In this document: in pieces, positions 52,089 to 53,392 of the stretch | Numbering within the stretch: the first letter of the stretch is position 1 | Layout of the letters: every line of letters begins with the position of its first letter | Source of the DNA: a virus | IMG/VR virus record: IMGVR_UViG_3300050821_010968 | Span: 1 to 64,000 of that record | Strand: one strand, 5' to 3' | DNA length: 64,000 bases | Program-made: the position numbers and the translations under genes | Notes under the pieces: generated by a model | Database searches by the model: none | Told to the model about the DNA's origin: nothing | The model's input: only the letters and a program-made list of their open reading frames with translations

Positions 52089-52169
52089 CTGTTCCTCCAA
52101 TATGCGTTGCGAGCCATCTCTCGCAAATCACTATTTCTTATGTCATAATTTCCCTAGATCGGCCAAGCC

Positions 52170-52327
52170 GATTCGGGGCGTGAGAACCCCACACCTAACG
52201 GCTTTTGTGCAGCCGTGATCCAGCACTCCTCGACCGTATGGTCGGGGAGGCCGTCGCGCATGTTCAGGGCGAAAGCCTAAAGGCGGCGGCGAACCCGCTT
52301 AGGTGTGGTTTTCTCAACTCCCCGATC
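52170..52327 (+). other.  Confidence 0.
52170..52327 (+). ncRNA. structured RNA of unknown class, about 158 nt
   Basis: A long closing helix pairs 170-178, 181-186 and 189-198 (all +52000) with 320-327, 311-316 and 299-308, about 24 pairs broken by one internal loop and one 2x2 mismatch. Inside are three hairpins: CGGCT/AGCCG (52199-52215); CGACC-GTAT-GGTCG (52231-52244); and an 8-bp helix 52250-52257/52283-52290 topped by GGC-GAAA-GCC (52268-52277). This is a four-way-junction layout. Two U-G wobbles (52254/52286, 52230/52245) would be A-C mismatches on the other strand, so it is probably made from the plus strand. It ends 24 nt before the ATG of an exported protein, so it may be a leader element or a separate RNA. 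I do not recognise the class. Confidence 0.7.
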
Positions 52328-52350
52328 ACCAGTCGGAGGGCGGAGGGCCT

Positions 52351-52812
52351 ATGAAGGGTTGGATATTTGCGACGCTTGCATTTCTGATAACTCCAGCGAT
52401 TGGCGCAGAATTTACAGATGCAGACGGTGGGCAAGCGATAATCGCTGCATTTCGTGCGCACAGCGCGTTTGATAGTCAACTCATTGACTATCCAAGCGCG
52501 AGATTCCGTAACACCGTCGCGCACTATTTCATACGCTCTGATAATAAGAAGGCCTATTTCCTGTGTGGTGAGGTGAATTCGAAAAATGGGTTGGGTGGAT
52601 ACAGTGGGTGGGTGCCATTTCTCGTATCGGGAGATGGAACTGTAGAGCTTCCGGTAAACGGCATTGCTCCTTTTGTATCTGAAATCTGCGCGCCAGACGC
52701 AATTAATCCCACAGTCATCGACCATGTGCGTCCCGATTACAGCCAACTTCTGTATCAAAGCATGACGCCAGAAAAATTCGCCGAACAATTGGGATTGGTA
52801 AGCAAAAAATAG
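52351..52812 (+). CDS. exported protein, paralogue of 52943-53392
   Basis: A 153-residue protein with a signal peptide (MKGWIFATLAFLITPAIGA). The core SARFRNTVAHYF...AYFLCGEVNSKNGLGGYSGWVPFL is shared with the next protein (SARFRNVMA...FLFCGEVNAKNQLGGYVGFQPFL). Small periplasmic or outer-membrane proteins with this FCGEVNxKNxxGGY motif are common in Proteobacteria. GGAGGGCGGAGGG precedes the ATG, directly after the structured RNA. Confidence 0.75.
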   Translation: MKGWIFATLAFLITPAIGAEFTDADGGQAIIAAFRAHSAFDSQLIDYPSARFRNTVAHYFIRSDNKKAYFLCGEVNSKNGLGGYSGWVPFLVSGDGTVELPVNGIAPFVSEICAPDAINPTVIDHVRPDYSQLLYQSMTPEKFAEQLGLVSKK

Positions 52813-52942: not shown

Positions 52943-53392
52943 ATGCGCATTCTCCTCTGGGTAGCCATCATTATGATACCCGTTTTTGCTGGTGTTCTAT
53001 TTTTAGCGAGTAACACGAAGCAGTCGTTGCTCACGCCTGCGTCCGTACCAACAGCGGCCACAATTCCCGAGCCCCGTGATGATGCCGATCTAGCGAAGGA
53101 AGTTGCAAAAGAAACTCCCTCTACCGAAGAATTAATAAAATCCAAGCTCACCGATCCCGACAGCGCACGCTTCCGAAATGTTATGGCAGTGCGGCCCAAA
53201 TCATTTTCGTCAGGTTTTCTGTTCTGCGGTGAAGTGAACGCGAAGAATCAACTTGGAGGCTATGTGGGATTTCAGCCGTTTTTGGCAGTGGGGGAGACTG
53301 CGTATATCGTAACAGACGGTTCAATAGCAGAAAATCTGTTCAACAGTTTTTGTCTTCAGGGAAAACCGTTGATGAGAGTGTCGTTTAACTAG
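52943..53392 (+). CDS. membrane-anchored periplasmic protein, paralogue of 52351-52812
   Basis: A 149-residue protein: an N-terminal anchor (LLWVAIIMIPVFAGVLFLA), a Pro/Ala/Glu-rich linker, then KLTDPDSARFRN...FCGEVNAKNQLGGYVGF. It shares only the C-terminal domain with its neighbour. GAGGG precedes the ATG. Possibly an immunity or envelope protein; no evidence for either. Confidence 0.73.
   Translation: MRILLWVAIIMIPVFAGVLFLASNTKQSLLTPASVPTAATIPEPRDDADLAKEVAKETPSTEELIKSKLTDPDSARFRNVMAVRPKSFSSGFLFCGEVNAKNQLGGYVGFQPFLAVGETAYIVTDGSIAENLFNSFCLQGKPLMRVSFN

Follow-up and report, generated by a model that had tools for sequence, protein, structure and literature searches.

A pseudoknotted RNA leader family of mobile elements, with a 3′ half related to sRNA-Xcc1 and a probable cis-acting switch role

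The locus in the viral DNA

The DNA analysed, called the window here, is a stretch of 64 000 nt from a 156-kb virus record (IMG/VR, IMGVR_UViG_3300050821_010968). Large open reading frames (ORFs) in the record include those of an ArdC-type anti-restriction protein, a CCA-adding-enzyme-like ORF, two AAA ATPases and an insertion-sequence transposase. A structured RNA lies on the plus strand at 52157–52331. A sequence-only reading had placed a stable plus-strand structure at this locus, and folding bore this out: the minimum free energy (MFE) was −101 kcal/mol, compared with −78.2 ± 4.7 kcal/mol for shuffled sequences (z −4.81; 0/200 shuffles as good), and a covariance model of the family (R1, see below) scored 136.3 bits on the plus strand and 17.6 bits on the minus strand. 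The 5′ boundary is earlier than first noted, at a hairpin named P0. The GAAA tetraloop was found as described (52271–52274), and the element does precede the exported protein, ending 19 nt 5′ of its ATG at 52351. The features of the locus are as follows.

52144–52149, plus strand: −10-like box CATAAT, with a weak −35 (from the family logo)
52157–52174, plus strand: hairpin P0, GAUCGGC-CAA-GCCGAUU, predicted 5′ end of the RNA; such a stem occurs in 88% of 266 loci and in 15% of shuffled sequences
52175–52190, plus strand: local hairpin P1, GGGG-CGUGAGAA-CCCC (52175–52178 with 52187–52190), 98.2% paired, with changes on both sides
52181–52186, plus strand: P1 loop, which forms the 5′ side of pseudoknot PK1 (94.7% paired; both sides show changes)
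52191–52198, plus strand: 5′ strand of pseudoknot PK2, ACACCUAA (from matched and swapped duplex scores)
52199–52215, plus strand: hairpin P3 (from the sequence)
52207–52210 and 52223–52226, plus strand: putative PK3, in which the P3 loop GUGC could pair with GCAC (by eye)
52226–52249, plus strand: hairpin P4, whose 3′ strand (52240–52249, GGUCGGGGAG) is the proposed switch strand (from covariation)
52250–52290, plus strand: P5, including P5b, with the most conserved internal loop (GCAUGUUCA / UAAAG); 97.0% paired
within 52250–52290, plus strand: P5b, GGGC-GAAA-GCCU
52293–52309, plus strand: mini-hairpin P6, ACC/GGU
52299–52306, plus strand: P6 loop, UUAGGUGU, 3′ strand of PK2 (from the same test as its 5′ strand)
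52311–52316, plus strand: 3′ strand of PK1, UUCUCA
52318–52327, plus strand: tail, CUCCCCGAUC, with either 52240–52249 (PK4) or the Shine–Dalgarno (SD) region as predicted partner
52335–52347, plus strand: SD region, GGAGGGCGGAGGG, predicted to pair in part with a free tail (from folding the 3′ segment)
52351–52812, plus strand: ORF of 153 amino acids with a predicted signal peptide, the putative controlled gene (from the ORF list)

A consensus promoter scan of the window gave no strong promoter. In a logo of 233 family loci aligned on P0, a TTG box and a TANNNT box stood at a fixed distance with the spacing of bacterial promoters, and the +1 G coincided with the first base of P0. The product of the 52351 ORF matches PHROG 2320 (E 4.7e-11), a group of unknown function, and the same RNA precedes homologues of it in two further genomes (loci L098 and L230). 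The product of a second downstream gene (52943–53392) resembles it, with the motifs SARFRN and CGEVNxKNxLGGY in common; this gene has no RNA copy of its own.

Relatives and conserved fold

The element was compared with known sequences by blastn, which detected unannotated copies on 18 alphaproteobacterial plasmids and no match in phages. A spaced pattern derived from the alignment of the plasmid copies had at least 119 matches in species genomes and 21 in viral contigs, and the R1 covariance model was built from 87 pattern-found stretches. At E ≤ 1e-6, R1 had matches in 57/385 alphaproteobacterial genomes, in 27/299 genomes drawn across the phylum and in 3/149 Acidobacteriota. Carriers include plasmids, phages and integrons, and the family comprises several hundred loci, only partly recognised so far. 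Multiple copies occur in some genomes. That of Agrobacterium vitis CG78 holds ten (among them L185, L189, L191, L193, L194, L196 and L031); several of these stand before genes of small membrane proteins that are paralogues (MADYNVWADLFDTWQS...), and they share an additional hairpin, inserted between P3 and P4. On a Shinella sumterensis plasmid (L013, ~1633–2930), the RNA lacks its 5′ end and is immediately preceded by a group II intron reverse transcriptase, which would fit insertion of the intron into the RNA.

Covariation was tested on alignment A2, made of 85 distinct, mostly divergent sequences. The pattern that chose the first loci constrains some of P4 and PK4; matches found by model, without the pattern, are also in the test set, and the alignment was fitted to P4, not to PK4. 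In the pseudoknotted fold, 89.0% of the cells were paired (68.4% in shuffled alignments) and 740 cells carried changes on both sides (245 in shuffled alignments), values that none of 500 shuffles reached. The pairing signal was lost once the partners were slid by 1–3 columns. All eight pairs of the P5 region had changed on both sides, and PK4 was 95.4% paired, also with double changes. The PK2 pairs were aligned poorly by the covariance model (53–75%) because the length of PK2 varies; the evidence for PK2 is a scoring of matched strands against swapped ones, which gave duplex scores of 17.2 and 10.5 ± 0.16, respectively (n = 206, more than 40 standard deviations apart). P4 had 52 double-change cells, compared with 9.5 in shuffled alignments (0/500). 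P4 and PK4 share the strand 52240–52249, so they exclude each other, and both covary. Their energies in the window are nearly equal, at −17.6 kcal/mol for the P4 hairpin and −18.0 kcal/mol for the PK4 duplex. The conserved RNA was shown by this comparison to be pseudoknotted (P0-P1-P3-P4-P5-P6 with PK1 and PK2), with predicted pairings that covary and are mutually exclusive. A mini-ORF of the window inside P5 (AUG-UUC-AGG-GCG-AAA-GCC-UAA) was considered as a leader peptide and rejected, its stop codon being lost in relatives.

This fold departs from the one first proposed, a nested four-way junction closed by a helix of about 24 pairs. The nested helix and the named hairpins do occur in the MFE fold, which speaks for such a layout; the junction and its long closing helix did not withstand the comparison. 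The outer GGGG:CCCC closing pairs had 4 double-change cells where 2.7 were expected, and slid versions were equally good. The partner with which the GGGG strand covaries is the local 52187–52190, not the distant closing strand, and the middle of the supposed closing helix (52191–52198 with 52299–52306) is a pseudoknot with the loop of the small hairpin P6. With no covariation in its outer closing pairs and a covarying pseudoknotted alternative, the four-way junction is very improbable. Homologues that keep the bases and break the pairs had been named as the observation that would count against an RNA structure; when this was checked, structure was favoured, in a form that differs from the proposed one.

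Downstream genes and kinship with sRNA-Xcc1

An ORF of at least 80 amino acids begins on the same strand 10–130 nt 3′ of the RNA in 79% of 172 loci, compared with 23% on the opposite (control) side. The downstream proteins are diverse, 186 of them falling into 98 unrelated clusters. They include RovC-type DNA-binding proteins, XRE and sigma-factor regulators, TraM, lipoproteins, small membrane proteins, prepilins, O-acetyl- and glycosyltransferases, a serine recombinase and antirepressors, and no family dominated the alphaproteobacterial set by Pfam or PHROGs. With about 100 unrelated gene families downstream, the constant part is the RNA. In several small-genome Alphaproteobacteria (L277, L278, L279, L209, L225, L255 and L266), multiple copies were seen before pilin- or prepilin-like genes. 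On three plasmids (L017, L019 and L005), short ORFs directly behind the RNA, encoding for example HRxYxxALxxWERxxHxxxC, are absent from the listed annotation; the RNA may help to locate such overlooked small genes.

Two kinds of expression platform were recognised behind the core. In 103 members with divergent tails, the complementarity of the tail to the SD was 13.25 for its own site and 11.75 ± 0.22 for swapped sites (0/500), and a GGGGA-like SD was present in 61/129 loci of the main group, compared with 49/1302 control ORFs. At 20 loci, the tail forms an 8–9-bp stem with downstream sequence that is followed by a U tract, i.e. a predicted intrinsic terminator. Alternative pairing is thus coupled to a terminator or a ribosome site at the level of the family, and only weakly so in the window itself. 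There, the tail hairpin (−13.8 kcal/mol) pairs most of the first GGAGGG and leaves the second only partly paired or largely free; given this partial masking, control should act at initiation and may be modest. In L258 and L259, the tail sequence of the RNA recurs at the ribosome site (GGAGCGCCA), so the intervening GCUCCGG can pair with either copy, which implies the opposite sign of switching there. The ...ACCA end of the tail was considered as a tRNA mimic and rejected, because the final bases are variable and pair, in many members, with a terminator arm.

The RNA had been called unrecognised. This holds for the window copy: scans of the window and the element with Rfam gave no useful match to any family, and a scan of the window and the whole record gave no match to sRNA-Xcc1 (RF02221) at E up to 10, the gathering score of 53 bits not being reached. 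It does not hold for the 3′ half of the family. Among 20 divergent members, five matched RF02221 at 28.7–45.4 bits, under the 53-bit cut-off, and six loci fetched with RF02221 (L307, L310 and L314–L317) matched both RF02221 and R1. A second model, R2, was made from 60 genome members with the window left out. It detected the window at 112 bits and the gammaproteobacterial RF02221 phage loci at full length including P1, with a best E of 4.4e-12. The RF02221 stem corresponds to PK4 around P5 and P6, and the PK4 stem, the P5 internal loop and P6 were all found. On these model comparisons, the 3′ half is homologous to RF02221 via intermediates, and the window RNA is the alphaproteobacterial branch of a superfamily whose 3′ half is Rfam's sRNA-Xcc1. 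Both have the PK4 stem, P5 with its internal loop, P6, the tail and a link to mobile elements (integrons, phages and plasmids). However, the RF02221 model has 87 nt and lacks the 5′ half (P0, P1, PK1, PK2 and P4), the window element being about twice as long, and RF02221 is annotated as a trans-acting sRNA whereas the window element looks like a cis leader.

sRNA-Xcc1 of X. campestris is an abundant 88-nt RNA detected by Northern blot and RACE (PMC2996969); the RF02221 structure gained two covarying pairs in Rfam 15 (PMC11701678). The RNA precedes symE in Xanthomonas integrons (PMC12444791). Seven copies are known from Xylella, and a single island holds five of them (PMC12189769). Outside bioRxiv and Chen et al. 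2011, a literature search gave no report tying sRNA-Xcc1 to antirepressors, riboswitches or leaders.

In Gammaproteobacteria, the RF02221 RNA lies about 30–70 nt 5′ of a same-strand gene in phages Aaphi23, 4316, Pmp3, Mcat15 and Rac-SA53 and in a P. aeruginosa plasmid, and in 5/6 cases this gene is annotated as antirepressor, KilA-N or BRO. A viral pattern scan gave at least 120 RF02221-type stretches; matches in Shiga-toxin-converting phages were left out of the loci examined. When 32 downstream proteins were scanned, the only Pfam families were P22_AR, KilA-N, Rha, AntA, Bro-N and ORF6N/C, each of them characteristic of antirepressors or related phage regulators. The earlier suggestion of an antisense or immunity RNA fits these relatives. 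They carry a 5′ half that is absent from the Rfam model, with P1-like loops whose complementarity to a receiver strand is 7.1 nt (5.8 ± 0.08 nt when swapped). A 5′-half strand of 6–9 nt recurs at the ribosome site, with its complement in the receiver, in 72/75 loci (mean 6.6, compared with 4.4 swapped), and the receiver is complementary to the SD over 7.4 nt (5.4 nt swapped). The receiver must therefore choose between the 5′ half, which would leave the site free, and the ribosome site, which would be masked. In the alphaproteobacterial branch, window included, the SD mostly lacks such a copy of the 5′ strand; in most alphaproteobacterial members, again including the window, the tail plays the part of the receiver at the ribosome site. 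A conserved terminator-like hairpin with a T run separates the 5′ half from the sRNA-Xcc1 half (L322–L409; 87%, compared with 21% in shuffled sequences), suggesting early termination or processing of the antirepressor leaders.

Proposed mechanism and alternatives

A conserved structured 5′ leader lies in cis with the putatively controlled gene, as in riboswitch classes. With transcription predicted to start at the RNA from a family promoter, a same-strand ORF behind it and about 100 unrelated gene families, the element is most likely a cis-acting switch leader, and the earlier idea of a riboswitch-like leader is well supported in this form. In the window it probably controls the 52351 gene, by an exchange of PK4 and P4 predicted from their covariation. 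In the compact pseudoknotted state, PK4 would hold the tail and leave the ribosome site free (ON). When P4 forms, the tail would be released and could pair with the nearby downstream ribosome site, which is rich in purines (OFF); in other members, the released tail would complete the intrinsic terminator instead. Switching in the cell, the identity of the ON state and the action in cis are what we infer. Candidate triggers are a small ligand such as a metabolite, a protein or a trans-acting RNA, which might match PK1/PK2 or be a copy of the 3′ half. The PK1 and PK2 strands, variable yet strictly matched, would fit an address between RNAs as well. Some observations count against the preferred reading: SD masking is partial and the promoter weak in the window, the PK2 pairs were poorly aligned, and a pure cis leader does not require an abundant founder RNA of about 88 nt.

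In riboswitches of the preQ1 and SAM-II type, a pseudoknot and ribosome-site pairing are in competition, and the same core is joined to terminator or translational platforms. The present RNA likewise sets a pseudoknot against ribosome-site pairing; the likeness is one of mechanism only, since this RNA is larger, has several pseudoknots and no Rfam sequence match, and precedes genes without a common pathway. A metabolite riboswitch of a new class, in which the P5 internal loop and the PK1/PK2 core would bind a small molecule and so decide between PK4 and P4, is a narrower form of the switch-leader reading and is possible, if doubtful. The compact core with its nearly invariant internal loop, the joining of one core to two kinds of platform and the wide occurrence in Alphaproteobacteria, with some Acidobacteriota, are consistent with it. 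The downstream genes, however, share no pathway, unlike those of most such riboswitches, and this diversity counts somewhat against a metabolite; there is no hint of a ligand, and the gammaproteobacterial relatives control antirepressors. The antirepressor context recalls the c4 RNA of phages P1/P7 (RF01695) and its a1b1 target (RF03163), where short complementary strands by the ribosome site control antirepressor expression. By analogy, a released 3′ half of about 88 nt might pair in trans with ribosome-site copies in mRNAs of antirepressors or other mobile-element genes, with the 5′ half as antidote. The 88-nt length of sRNA-Xcc1, which is that of the PK4-enclosed 3′ half, the receiver's complementarity to the SD, the SD copy of the 5′ strand and the mid-leader hairpin all speak for such an immunity system. 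It is nevertheless rather unlikely: the C4 covariance model had no match at the sRNA-Xcc1 loci of six phages and a plasmid, so that identity as a C4 RNA was rejected; the fold is another one; and the alphaproteobacterial branch, which precedes many other genes, mostly lacks the SD copy, in the window too. One unrelated C4 was seen elsewhere in the Aaphi23 genome.

The published view of sRNA-Xcc1, a free-standing trans-acting sRNA adjacent to genes by chance, can appeal to the Northern and RACE results already cited and to the title of Chen et al. 2011, which reportedly calls the RNA trans-acting. It would not lead one to expect the fixed spacing of the same-strand ORF, the co-variation of tail and SD or the ribosome-site copies of the 5′ strand, and we regard it as improbable for this family. 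Least probable is a feature acting as DNA, such as a miniature mobile element or a recombination site: occurrence on plasmids, phages and integrons would suit it, but the G-U pairs, the strand asymmetry of 136 to 18 bits, the promoter logo with +1 at P0 and the fixed spacing to the start codon do not.

Returning to the switch leader, the study of one odd phage fold has thus grown to a family that counts several hundred loci and has a mechanism open to testing, and an Rfam family annotated as a trans-acting sRNA may be reread as the 3′ portion of a longer leader. The RNA is tied to antirepressor genes, the deciders of phage induction. Tentatively, and at somewhat under even confidence, it could represent a widespread, hitherto unrecognised class of RNA switches dedicated to mobile elements, in which one pseudoknotted core senses a cue and decides on the expression of phage antirepressors in Gammaproteobacteria and, in Alphaproteobacteria, of about a hundred cargo and regulator genes unrelated to one another; sRNA-Xcc1 would then be a truncated, misannotated part of it. 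A constant fold with a changing gene behind it suggests a signal common to phages, plasmids and conjugative elements, which can now be searched for directly.
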